Program-made: the position numbers and the translations under genes
Part shown: in pieces, positions 7,626 to 29,497 of the stretch
Numbering within the stretch: position 1 is the first letter of the stretch
Layout of the letters: every line of letters starts with the position of its first letter
The notes under the pieces: model-generated
The model's database searches: none
What the model was told of the DNA's origin: nothing
The model's input: the letters and a program-made list of their open reading frames with translations, nothing else
NCBI GenBank assembly: GCA_022566015.1
Contig: JADFJT010000005.1
Span: 1-49,181, forward strand
Length of the DNA: 49,181 bases
Direction: 5' to 3'
Source of the DNA: Pseudomonadota bacterium
GTDB lineage: Bacteria > Pseudomonadota > Gammaproteobacteria > GCA-001735895

Positions 7626-7736
<111 letters not shown>

Positions 7737-9533: not shown

Positions 9534-9851
9534 GGAATCCTCTGATCAATTCATGCTGAATTGCTGTGGACGAAAACCGAAAAATGTGAGTTCGGTTTTC
9601 ATACAAAATCGAAGCCTTACAGGGGCCGATTTTGTTGGCACTTGACCTACACGGACGTGGGAAATGCAGGTTTTTCATCGTTACATGGGCAAGGGATGTT
9701 CCGACATCCCCATTGCATTTCCACCGTCCTTGGCGGTCATGTAACTTATTAGAGCACCAAAAGTAGGCGCTTTTAGGCGGTGCTGGAGCAACTGCCGAGG
9801 AGCAAAAACCTGCCCATGTGCGACAGACACTCTGATTAAAGCAGAGTTTCC
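9534..9851. mobile_element. 318 bp MITE-like element between dnaX and ybaB
   Basis: Imperfect terminal inverted repeats bound the element: left GGAATCCTCTGATCAAT (from 9534), right end read in reverse GGAAACTCTGCTTTAATC (from 9851). TTAA precedes the left end and TTAG follows the right end, compatible with a TTA-type target duplication. There is no transposase. The inside is highly structured: a perfect 10 bp stem (GAAAACCGAA 9572-9581 with TTCGGTTTTC 9591-9600), CAAAATCG 9604-9611 with CGATTTTG 9627-9634, a GTTACATG/CATGTAAC pair enclosing the hairpin GGGATGT-TCCG-ACATCCC, and a module at 9751-9779 shared with 27.4 kb. IS5-like origin is a guess from the end sequences. Confidence 0.6.
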
Positions 9852-25826: not shown

Positions 25827-26844
25827 AATCGCTGGTCAAAAAAAGCGGAAACCGGTATCTGGATGGAAGATATCACAGAGCCCGAATGTGGTTTCGAGGA
25901 TGTAAAAATAAAAATCCACAAGACCGCAATCTGTGGCACTGATATCCATATTTATAACTGGGATCACTGGGCCCAACAGACTATCGTCGTTCCCATGGTC
26001 ATAGGGCACGAATACGCCGGAGAAATCGTCGAACTAGGCAGCCATGTACACGGCCTTGAGATTGGTCAACGAGTGTCGGGGAAGGCCATATTGTTTGTGG
26101 TATTTGCCGGAACTGCCGTGCAGGCAAGCTACATCTATGTCGTAATACAATGGGTGTCGGGATTAATTGTCCGGGCGCATTTGCCGAGTACCTGGTAATC
26201 CCGGCTCGTAATGTTTATCCGTTACCCGACGATATCTCGGACGATTTCGCTCCTATTCTCGACCCGCTTGGCAACGCTACTCATACGGCCCTGTCATTCG
26301 ACCTGGTCGGAGAAGATATCCTGATTACTGGCGCAGGCCCGACAGGCATCATGGCGGCAGCGGTTGCACGACGTTCGGGTGGCGTCACGTGGTCATTACC
26401 GATGTGAACGAATATCGTCTTGCCTTTGCCGGTAAGCTCGGCGCCACCCGTGCCGTCAACATCGCAAACAAATCGATCGATCAAGTGATGTCTGAAATTG
26501 GCATGCAAGAAGGGTTTGAGGTGGGACTGGAGATGTCGGGCAATGCCCAGGCATTTAACGATATGCTCCAAAACATGGTTCATGGTGGCCGCATCGCGTT
26601 ACTCGGTATCCCACCTAAAGACACGGCAATAGACTGGAACCAGGTTATATTTAAAGGCCTCAACATCAAGGGCATCTATGGTCGTGAAATGTTTGAAACC
26701 TGGTATAAAATGACCGCGCTACTACAAAGTGGCTTGAAACTGGAACCTGTAATCACTCACCGCTACGATATCGACGACTTCCAGACTGGATTTGATGTAA
26801 TGCGTTCTGGACAATCAGGAAAGGTAATTTTGAACTGGTGTTGA
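25823..26844 (+). pseudogene. tdh: L-threonine 3-dehydrogenase, frameshifted three times
   Basis: Tdh oxidises threonine to 2-amino-3-ketobutyrate for Kbl. Similarity to E. coli Tdh runs from MKSLVKK to GKVILNWC, but the frame changes three times: in an A7 run at 25838-25844 (one A too many), at GGGG 26078-26081 (one G short), and near 26375-26390. Catalytic zinc motifs such as [15 protein letters not shown] and [13 protein letters not shown] survive as text. With kbl gone, the pathway is lost here. Two of the three lesions lie at short homopolymers, so some could be sequencing errors, but three in one gene plus a truncated partner argues for decay. Confidence 0.85.
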
Positions 26845-27084
26845 GACATATTTGGGCTGCATGCTAATATAAAACAACTTAATACCGGCATCGATATTAA
26901 TTGCTATCCAGCAGTCTTTACAAAAGCTATATTTCGACTACGCTTAAGCGCACTTGCGTGGTGTGCTCTTCCATTTCAAGCATTAGCCCAGTTATCTAAA
27001 TTTTAGATTTTGGTTCATTGGTGTCCCGTTAACTTTTTTATAAAACTAGTAAGTTATTGTTATATTTAAGATTAAATATTTTAA

Positions 27085-27296
27085 ATGGCTCTGCACAAAA
27101 ATACTGTTGTTTTGAATGTTTATAACTCCATCGTCATTCCGGCATGTTTTTAGCCGGAATCTAAGGTAATTGGACGCATTATTACTAATTTTGGCTCCGT
27201 TTTCGATAGATTCCGGCTCGTGGGCCGGAATGACAGGATGGTTATATAGCGAAATTTCGAATTATTTTTAATCACAGTAATTTCATGCAGAGCCAT
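27085..27296. repeat. inner 212 bp element with ATGGCTCTGCA ends
   Basis: The terminal inverted repeats ATGGCTCTGCA (27085-27095) and TGCAGAGCCAT (27286-27296) are perfect over 11 bases and extend imperfectly further in (both then approach ...ATACTGT/TTACTGT). It lies within the larger repeat island. Inside, two CGTCATTCCGGC hairpins face each other. No gene. Confidence 0.6.
27132..27234. repeat. pair of inverted CGTCATTCCGGC hairpins
   Basis: Unit one: CGTCATTCCGGC 27132-27143, with GCCGGAATCTA 27153-27163. Unit two, in the opposite sense: TAGATTCCGGC 27207-27217, with GCCGGAATGAC 27224-27234. Each unit is a hairpin and the two together form a larger palindrome. CGTCATTCCGGC-type repeats are widespread in proteobacterial intergenic DNA. 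Confidence 0.65.
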
Positions 27297-27340
27297 TATA
27301 TTTTATGATTATTTTAGACATGAATCATCGGAAGAGTATT

Positions 27341-27452
27341 CGTCATTCCGATACGTCGGACCGCCGCACACGACTGCATGGATGCAGGAGGTAGAGCACC
27401 AACAGTAGGCGCTTTAGGCGACGCAGGAGCAGTTGCCGAGGCGGGAATGACG
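27341..27452. repeat. palindromic unit with shared GTAGAGCACC module
   Basis: CGTCATTCCG at 27341-27350 and CGGGAATGACG at 27442-27452 bound about 112 bases. These contain a CTGCAT/ATGCAG hairpin (27374-27387) and the module at 27393-27420. That module is nearly identical to 9751-9779 in the dnaX-ybaB MITE, one substitution and one indel apart. Confidence 0.6.
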
Positions 27453-27485
27453 TGCAACTCATTGATACAACTGAGTATTAAGACA

Positions 27486-27518
27486 CTAGATTCCGGCTAG
27501 AAACATGCCGGAATGACG
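27486..27518. repeat. CGTCATTCCGGC-type hairpin, third copy
   Basis: CTAGATTCCGGC 27486-27497 pairs with GCCGGAATGACG 27507-27518. Same family and orientation as the second hairpin at 27207-27234. Confidence 0.65.
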
Positions 27519-27655
27519 ATTGTTGAGTTAACGGGACAGCAATGATTTTGGTTAATTAAATGACCCCTCCGGAACGAGTAATTGCAATTAATTTGTACAT
27601 ATTCCTGGCAAGCGATCATGATTAAGCAAAACTGGACAATATTTAAATTCTCTTT

Positions 27656-29497
27656 GTGACCGGCATGAAATTTCGTACTCGATTGAAAAATTTATTTCCA
27701 TTCCTCAAATGGGGGAAAAACCAGACAAAGGAATCTTTGCACGCTGACATGATGGCCGGGCTAACCGGTGCGGCCATTGTATTGCCACAGGGCGTTGCCT
27801 TTGCGGCCATCGCTGGAATGCCGCCAGAATATGGGCTATACACAAGCATGGTACCCGCCATTATCGCGGCATTGTTCGGTTCATCCTGGCACCTGGTATC
27901 AGGCCCGACTACGGCGGCTTCGATCGTGATGTTTTCTTCCTTGAGTGTATTAGCCGTACCTGGCAGCGAACAATATATCGCGCTCGCAATCACCCTGGCT
28001 TTCATGGTTGGTGTTATACAACTCGTCATGGGACTGGTGCGATTAGGCACCCTGGTTAACTTTATATCCCATTCTGTAATCGTGGGCTTTACCGCAGGGG
28101 CAGCCTGCCTGATCGCAGCCAAACAGGCGAAAACATTTTTTGGCATCGACTTGCACGATAGCGAGCACCTGTCCCAGGATATCAGCTACCTGTTCACTCA
28201 TTGGGACTCATTGCATCCGCTTGCATCTGCAGTGGCTTTGGCAACATTAACTGTCGGGGTGATTGCACTTAAAATAAACCCTAAATTTCCGGGAATGATA
28301 GTGGCACTATTGATCGGAAGTACATTCGCGGTTTTACTCAATTTGACATTTGGCGAAGAATTCACTGGCATACAAATGGTAGGGGCCTTACCGCGCCAAC
28401 TACCCCCTCTGTCCACACCAATATTTTCACTGCATGTGCTAAGAGACCTGGCACCGCTCGCATTAGCCATGACACTATTTGCATTAACCGAAGCAGTATC
28501 CATCTCCCGGTCTATCTCGATTAAATCGGGCCAGCCTATTTCGGGTAGTCAGGAATTTATCGGGCAGGGTTTATCTAATATTGCCGGTAGCTTTTTCTCG
28601 GCCTATGTCGCCACCGGCTCGTTTAACCGTAGCGGTGCCAACTACGACGCTGGTGCCCGATCGCCTTTCGCGGCAGCTTTTGCCGGCGTAATTTTGATAG
28701 TCATCGTACTCGCTGTAGCTCCGCTAACCTCTTATTTACCGAAAGCGGCAGTCGCAGGCTTGCTGATCCTGGTTGCCTGGCGCATCATCAATTTCAGTCA
28801 AATCAAGAAAATATTACGCGCTGACCCGAATGAAGCTGCGGTTTTAATCGTCACCTTTTTGAGCACCATATTTCTCAAGCTTGAATTCGCGATCTTGCTT
28901 GGAGTCATATTATCGCTAATGATATTTCTTCGCAGAACCTCGCGCCCCAGGCTACTGCCACGCGTTCCTGACCCGGATAGCAGGAACCGTAAATTTGTAG
29001 TCGGGCTGACTCGTCCCGAGTGTCCGCAATTGAAAATGCTACGACTTGAAGATTCGCTATATTTCGGATCGGTCTCCCATGTCGGCGAATTACTCAGGCG
29101 CTACCGGGAACACTATCCAGAACAAAAACACCTGTTAATTCTCACCAAAGGCATCAATCAGGTCGATATCGCCGGAGCAGAATTACTCGTAAACGAAGCC
29201 AGGTCGAGACGTAAAATGGGCGGCAGGCTATATCTTTATCGACTCAAAGACCGTGCAGCCAAAGTGATGGAACGCGGTGGTTATAATGAAGAGATCGGCG
29301 AAGAAAATATCTTTGACTCAAAGAGCGAAGCGATATCTGAAATTTTTGACAGGCTGGATAAAAATATCTGTGCTAAATGCACTAATCGAATTTTCCTGGA
29401 GTGCGGTTCCCCCGACCCATCGTCTCGTAGAAAACAGTTAGAGGATAGTGATCAGACCGATACCTCTAGCGACCCAGACGCACCCGTACCAACCTGA
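27656..29497 (+). CDS. SulP family inorganic anion transporter with STAS domain
   Basis: An inner-membrane SLC26/SulP transporter of 613 residues with 10 to 12 predicted membrane segments and a cytoplasmic STAS domain at about 460-565. The SulP signature near the N-terminus (VLPQGVAFAAIAGMPPEYGLYTS) is strong. Substrates of the family include sulfate, bicarbonate and fumarate; no carbonic anhydrase or sulfur gene sits beside it to decide. The C-terminal tail has an unusual CAKCTNRIFLEC cysteine cluster and a Ser/Asp-rich end. The start is a GTG at 27656, with ATG at 27665 an alternative; neither has a clear ribosome-binding site. Confidence 0.9.
   Translation: MTGMKFRTRLKNLFPFLKWGKNQTKESLHADMMAGLTGAAIVLPQGVAFAAIAGMPPEYGLYTSMVPAIIAALFGSSWHLVSGPTTAASIVMFSSLSVLAVPGSEQYIALAITLAFMVGVIQLVMGLVRLGTLVNFISHSVIVGFTAGAACLIAAKQAKTFFGIDLHDSEHLSQDISYLFTHWDSLHPLASAVALATLTVGVIALKINPKFPGMIVALLIGSTFAVLLNLTFGEEFTGIQMVGALPRQLPPLSTPIFSLHVLRDLAPLALAMTLFALTEAVSISRSISIKSGQPISGSQEFIGQGLSNIAGSFFSAYVATGSFNRSGANYDAGARSPFAAAFAGVILIVIVLAVAPLTSYLPKAAVAGLLILVAWRIINFSQIKKILRADPNEAAVLIVTFLSTIFLKLEFAILLGVILSLMIFLRRTSRPRLLPRVPDPDSRNRKFVVGLTRPECPQLKMLRLEDSLYFGSVSHVGELLRRYREHYPEQKHLLILTKGINQVDIAGAELLVNEARSRRKMGGRLYLYRLKDRAAKVMERGGYNEEIGEENIFDSKSEAISEIFDRLDKNICAKCTNRIFLECGSPDPSSRRKQLEDSDQTDTSSDPDAPVPT

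Follow-up and report, generated by a model that had tools for sequence, protein, structure and literature searches.

The intergenic island at 27016–27544 is very probably a non-autonomous MITE of the IS4 family, here called M1, which is moved in trans and takes a pair of REP hairpins along, and one copy of which has itself received a second MITE, M2. It lies in the 49-kb window (the whole stretch of DNA analysed, 49,181 nucleotides), which is contig 91 of a 2.97-Mb draft genome, taken as gammaproteobacterial (G000; 197 contigs, completeness about 96%), in a spacer of about 810 bp that holds no long ORF and separates two plus-strand genes. This reading builds on direct observations: the ends and duplications of the elements, a transposase partner in relatives, the nesting and a common architecture. 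The outer element and its neighbours are placed as follows.

Ends at 26844, plus strand: zinc-binding dehydrogenase gene, 5' neighbour of the spacer
27007–27015, plus strand: 9-bp target duplication ATTTTGGTT, left-hand copy (from the sequence; register fixed by 36 TIR pairs)
27016–27544, minus strand: M1, outer MITE, 529 bp including M2 (from the TIR pair, target duplication and same-genome paralogues; the REP end, on the right, is taken as the start)
27016–27034, plus strand: left TIR of M1, CATTGGTGTCCCGTTAACT, differing from the right TIR at one position
27526–27544, minus strand: right TIR of M1, CATTGCTGTCCCGTTAACT
27545–27553, plus strand: target duplication ATTTTGGTT, right-hand copy
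27656–29497, plus strand: ORF of the SulP sulfate permease gene, downstream of M1

Ends and transposase partner of the outer element

An earlier, sequence-only reading of this DNA had proposed a 10-bp target duplication immediately outside 20-bp inverted repeats with one mismatch. The direct repeat is indeed present (GATTTTGGTT at 27006–27015 and 27544–27553), as are inverted arms of 20 nt (27015–27034 and 27526–27545, 95% complementary), and the two exact matches to the 13-mer TGTCCCGTTAACT in the window both fall at M1 (13841 matches it with 2 mismatches). However, the right 19-bp TIR ends with G27544, the complement of C27016. Because this base belongs to the TIR, and given the register obtained from 36 TIR pairs, the target duplication measures 9 bp (ATTTTGGTT) rather than 10. 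The inverted repeats thus keep their single mismatch at a true length of 19 bp, and the match of G27006 to G27544 is due to chance or to target preference.

The TIR pairs that fix this register were chosen blind to their flanks, from loci in relatives and from a scan of a genome collection, and number 36 after removal of identical duplicates and of pairs with fewer than 14 flank bases; they keep the copy at C46 and its orthologue in G007 (L021, L092) as two rows and include the likely misjoined C180 (L026). A perfect 9-bp repeat is found at 18 of the 36 pairs and a match at 8 or more of the 9 positions at 26, against 0.5 and 0.84 expected when flanks are randomly re-paired, while perfect repeats of 6, 7, 8, 10, 11 or 12 bp in the same register occur at 0/36. 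Matches at 7 of 9 positions or fewer are seen at 10 pairs, among them an autonomous copy in G008 (5/9) and C180 (3/9). Within G000, the duplication is 9/9 for the window copy, 9/9 for C120, 8/9 for C46 and 3/9 for C180, and the copy at C127, whose left end has degenerated too far to match the TIR-pair pattern, has ATAACTGTT on both sides. The collection scan returned at least 80 loci, and distribution counts are lower bounds; most of the sources are draft metagenome genomes, and the MITEs counted are related to each other, such that the counts are not independent events.

M1 is dispersed in G000 in several copies, and every ORF of at least 100 aa lies clear of 27016–27544. With its TIRs, small size, lack of a transposase gene, target duplication and dispersed copies, M1 is a MITE by the criteria tested. 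Two side observations concern such ends. At C127, three head-to-tail copies of the REP-side end of M1 (TIR plus a CAACAATCGTCATTCC-like start) lie 29 bp apart (L023 7147–7231; G000:C127:33146–33230), as if an M1 end had been duplicated repeatedly. A MITE of 106 bp, its 19-bp ends perfect, occurs in the gammaproteobacterium IMCC1989 (L179 5439–5544) and consists of nearly nothing except TIR and one imperfect palindrome.

The genes that flank M1 are adjacent in G007, 3 bp apart, with neither M1 nor the spacer between them (G007 alone among the matches listed for 31 genomes of the genus, G000 included). Since the spacer is missing together with M1, this locus neither supports nor refutes the M1 duplication, and a true empty site for M1 was not found among the matches listed for the same 31 genomes. 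A promoter and terminator scan of 26800–27700 yielded chance level only, and we therefore make no claim that M1 ends transcription. Elsewhere in the window, a bacterial small SRP RNA gene is located at 7635–7730 (Rfam RF00169, 62.5 bits).

Which enzyme might act on the M1 ends? Ends of 19 bp identical to those of M1 bound elements of 1274 and 1275 bp in the congeneric genomes G005 and G008, each with a 383-aa ORF. Both ORFs match Pfam DUF4372 and DDE_Tnp_1 and score 268.8 and 271.5 bits against the NCBIfam IS4 model (NF033592, cut-off 115); the target duplication is 9/9 in G005 and 5/9 in G008. Zhongshania antarctica contains a 1273-bp element with M1-type ends, a 9/9 duplication and a 398-aa ORF that, judged by eye, looks like the same protein as the G005 and G008 transposase. 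The best full-length plasmid match to this IS4 transposase has 51.1% identity (Pseudodesulfovibrio).

The sequence-only reading had suggested a search for the ends together with a transposase, which was thus successful in congeneric genomes and negative in G000 itself. The search that detected the G005 and G008 elements returned 0 matches to an IS4 transposase with M1 ends in G000, a draft of 197 contigs that is about 96% complete, and its five DDE_Tnp_1 loci show, by eye, no inverted end pair around the ORF, with scattered M1 and M2 end matches at 2–3 mismatches. M1 may be stranded in G000, or its transposase may reside in the unassembled part.

Two further observations concern the transposase. 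In the congeneric genome G001, 64 matches to the IS4 transposase query are listed, at about 25–40% identity and many of them partial. In the leader of the transposase gene (L097 2100–2190 and other autonomous-type 5' ends), GGCCTGATTC ... GAATCAGGCC surround a Shine-Dalgarno-like GGAGAA before the start codon, possibly forming a fold that hides the start codon from read-through transcripts.

The inner element and the nest

The sequence-only reading had also placed another TIR element inside the outer one, and this proved right. M2 is a second MITE, which sits in the left arm of an M1 copy as a nested insertion.

27076–27083, plus strand: M2 target duplication ATATTTTA, left-hand copy (L021 and L022 have this target once)
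27084–27297, plus strand: M2, inner MITE of 214 bp with TIR AATGGCTCTGCA, in the left arm of M1 (free-standing copy at L024)
27298–27305, plus strand: M2 target duplication ATATTTTA, right-hand copy

The M2 TIRs pair 27084–27107 with 27274–27297, and the target duplication matches at 8/8 positions in the window. The M1 copies at C46 and C127 of the same genome lack M2 and contain ATATTTTA once, and hence represent paralogous empty sites. A free-standing M2 at C13 has TAAACAAA on both sides; altogether, a perfect 8-bp duplication surrounds two of four complete M2 copies, those at C80 and C26 having no clear one. M2 ends were detected in G000 and, beyond it, as one single-ended match among 273 other genomes searched. 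Family-wide, class-wide and own-genome pattern searches found no transposase partner for M2, and G000 contains no transposase-sized pair of M2 ends at up to 3 mismatches.

Hairpins resembling CGTC REPs and a distant box in one layout

The CGTCATTCCGGC hairpins of the island resemble REPs of the CGTC type and are built into M1 and M2 rather than being separate insertions. Together with the second motif of the layout, the AGACATGAA box, they are arranged as follows.

27132–27161, plus strand: CGTC REP unit 1 of M2, 97% over 34 nt, inverted, to unit 1 of M1
27207–27235, minus strand: REP unit 2 of M2, inverted, minus-strand TGTCATTCCGGC...GCCGGAATCTA
27316–27324, plus strand: AGACATGAA box of M1, 59 nt inside the left TIR after discounting M2 and one target copy (222 bp)
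27341–27452, plus strand: slot of REP unit 2 of M1, inverted relative to unit 1 and expanded, holding the GGTAGAGCACC...GCCGAG module at 27387–27440
27487–27518, minus strand: CGTC REP unit 1 of M1 (CGTC-ATTCCGGC-loop-GCCGGAAT-CTA), 7 nt inside the right TIR

Three such hairpins had been counted from the sequence; the hairpins themselves hold, and their number is four, two in M2 and two in M1. Arms of the CGTCATTCCGGC type start at 27132, 27224 (reverse complement), 27341, 27441 (reverse complement) and 27507 (reverse complement). It is the paired layout of these arms that carries the weight, rather than the raw count of the 12-mer, which with 8 window hits against 4.64 expected (up to 2 mismatches allowed) falls short of significance. 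The palindromic module copy, at 27387–27440, is likewise real, being a repeat found at several places in G000 and G007. M1 copies vary in the expansion of this second REP slot, which in the C127 copy is filled by a minimal 28-nt REP; the variation looks as if the element had grown or recombined internally. As an observation on its own, the GC-rich module of about 50 bp (GGTAGAGCACCAACAGTAGGCGCTTTAGGCGACGCAGGAGCAGTTGCCGAG; window 27387–27440 and 9750–9800) is dispersed at high identity over contigs of G000 and G007, with many sites outside M1.

Is the REP pair a regular constituent of elements with such ends? Among 34 MITEs with M1-type ends, a set that excludes three transposase-length elements, the CGTC tag begins 6–7 nt inside one TIR in 20 (for L022, whose hand-set boundary is 2 nt off, the distance is 7, printed as 9), and 19 of these 20 contain a second, inverted REP unit at up to 1 mismatch. 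The tagged MITEs derive from about ten genomes and, by eye, fall into about six subfamilies according to their non-hairpin arms; clustering merged most of them through their shared hairpins. Across loci L097–L191, a CGTC tag lies within 25 nt of 15 of 118 TIR ends, against 0.0006 expected per end from tag density. The remaining 14 of the 34 MITEs have no CGTC tag at an end, 4 of them (L121, L131, L133 and L156) having a CCCTCTCCC-type hairpin there, and the REP is therefore common but not obligatory.

The stem itself is maintained in these units. In an alignment of the first units of 18 of the 20 tagged MITEs (A1; L021 and L102, with diverged loops, were left out), the outer five stem pairs are paired in 90/90 cells, 12 of which have changed on both sides. 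None of 500 shuffles reached the observed percentage paired, number of changed cells or covariation score, while the pairs changed on both sides and the further pair types, two of the five measures, stayed within the shuffles; the covariation comes from one base pair, which exists in five types. The REP subtype of the window has 18 sites in G000 at up to 3 mismatches, of which 16 are inside M1 (8) or M2 (8), a count that is partly circular in that the subtype was defined from the MITEs; the sites at C74 and C96 have no M1 or M2 end nearby.

Toward the opposite end of the element, the AGACATGAA box, at up to 1 mismatch, lies 57–65 nt inside a TIR in 22/34 MITEs (0.07 expected from mononucleotide shuffles) and anywhere in the element in 24/34 (1.7 expected from dinucleotide shuffles), the other 12 of 34 having no box at the fixed place. 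When up to 2 mismatches are allowed, the box arm is near-constant in length in 25/34, with 65–72 nt from motif to TIR, in arms that are otherwise dissimilar between subfamilies. At 26 autonomous-type ends, sorted by end motif and with near-identical copies included, no match to the box was better than 3 mismatches. AGACATGAA resembles a ribosome-binding site followed by ATG, a role that was considered and rejected, the 18 frames read after the box having 16–45 codons and no peptide common across subfamilies, and no conserved RNA structure of the box arm was found (alifold energy 0.0).

How else might the island have arisen? The sequence-only reading saw a transposon landing pad built by successive insertions. 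Such a pad would be an intergenic spot that tolerates insertions and has accumulated hairpins, TIR elements and the palindromic module as separate events. Part of it has proven correct, because M2 is a genuine nested insertion, and the second REP slot does hold modules found elsewhere in the genome, with copy-specific extra DNA at C46. Taking each hairpin as a further insertion, however, conflicts with the REP pair being at the same TIR-adjacent place in M1 copies and in MITEs of other genomes (20/34), and with the partly circular tally of 16 out of 18 sites inside M1 and M2, and we consider the landing pad very unlikely. Even less credible, to the point of being nearly dismissed, is that the nest was created by draft assembly. 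Several M1 and M2 copies do sit at contig ends, the flank at the start of C180 recurs at the start of C120, and the left flank of C180 matches the right flank of C2 (GGTAATTAA; L026 1–100, L027 1–100, L025 321–335), which suggests a misjoin at an M1 copy. The window copy, in contrast, is internal to a 49-kb contig and has two perfect nested target duplications, and the C46 copy recurs with the same flanks in the sister genome G007.

A more serious contender is that MITEs with M1 ends have merely captured REPs that are common in intergenic DNA, perhaps because the IS4 group lands beside REPs, and that the layout is functionless. There is precedent in IS1111, which is known to target the GTAG REP of QMITE2 according to the parts of that account considered here (PMC5896051), and the occurrence of different hairpin classes in the slot (CCCTCTCCC in the four MITEs named above) would fit capture as well. 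Yet the REPs are found inside and not outside the ends: a REP tag is absent from all 72 flanks of 50 nt outside the 36 end pairs, and the AT fraction of the adjacent 14 nt is high (0.73; whole loci, 0.51). Moreover, the box keeps its near-constant TIR distance in otherwise dissimilar arms. We regard capture as improbable, though clearly less so than the landing pad, and continue with M1 as a MITE moved in trans with its REP pair.

Proposed mechanism and known systems

How might M1 and its hairpins have spread? An IS4-type transposase (DUF4372 plus DDE_Tnp_1), supplied in trans, would recognise the CAYTGCTGTCCCGTTAACT ends, excise M1 and paste it at a 9-bp staggered cut. The mobile unit would have the order TIR, 6/7 nt, inverted CGTC REP pair, AGACATGAA box some 60 nt before the second TIR, and that TIR; with the REP pair built into this layout, each jump would therefore also spread the REP pair. 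M2, with a CGTC REP pair and an 8-bp duplication of its own, would have entered the left arm of an M1 copy. We infer mobilisation in trans, cut-and-paste transposition and the gain of REP copies by jumping from this arrangement, and IS4-type MITEs are a plausible vehicle of CGTC REPs.

A wider idea can be put forward tentatively, and we rate it as somewhat more likely to be wrong than right. CGTC REPs may owe their spread in Gammaproteobacteria to an IS4-family MITE superfamily of which they form a functional module, the box keeping a near-fixed distance of about 61 nt from the other TIR. Other hairpin classes could replace the REP in its slot without loss of ends or box. For at least part of the CGTC REP class, the missing transposase might then be the IS4-type enzyme, and bare REPs might be what remains of such MITEs. 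Since IS4-ended MITEs of about ten genomes contain CGTC REP pairs at a constant position, the question of what moves these REPs becomes directly testable, and the window adds a clean nest of M2 in M1, for which G000 itself offers paralogous empty sites. Among the matches listed in a search of open-licence literature (GTCATTCC, ends, MITE/REP/IS4), none described an M1-type element by its title or the start of its abstract.

Among known insertion sequences, ISAbe18 of the IS4 family provides a relative. The transposase is homologous, plasmid proteins annotated as ISAbe18 family matching 97% of the query at 46.4% identity, whereas M1 lacks a transposase gene. The ends of one ISAbe18 copy begin with CACTGCTGTCCC and CATTGCTGTCCC, the inner part of the TIR reads GTTAACT in the M1 group against ATAGTTT/ACAATTT in ISAbe18, and the one ISAbe18 copy examined is flanked by a 10-bp repeat (GCTTCCTGAG) as opposed to the 9 bp of the M1 group.

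The hairpins resemble the CGTC REPs of Di Nocera et al. (2013; PMC3733652), which, in the parts of that study considered here, have a CGTC/TGTC tag, an 8-bp stem starting with AT, a 4-/5-nt loop and a CCA-like tail, all of them features that also appear in our units from other genomes; inverted pairs occur in both. The REP of the window fits in its CGTC tag and its 8-bp AT-starting stem and differs in its longer loop (ATGTTTTTA, 9 nt) and its tail CTA, units from other genomes fitting better. The same parts report a few fortuitous associations of CGTC REPs with transposase genes and no dedicated transposase, and the REPs described here differ from those CGTC REPs in being located inside MITEs with IS4-type ends.

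An analogous composite is QMITE2 of Coxiella burnetii (PMC5896051), which, as far as the parts considered describe it, is like M1 a REP-containing MITE; it measures about 190 bp and has TIRs and direct repeats of 7–9 bp, its smaller copies resemble bare REPs, and those parts mention no transposase partner. This REP is of the GTAG type, as opposed to the CGTC type here, and the two are likened by description. The nest itself is reminiscent of the BOX, RUP and SPRITE clusters of Streptococcus pneumoniae (PMC10969869), in which, according to the parts of that paper considered, small repeats, one of them terminator-like, have inserted into one another. Those repeats belong to different families, whereas the REPs described here are a module of the MITE.
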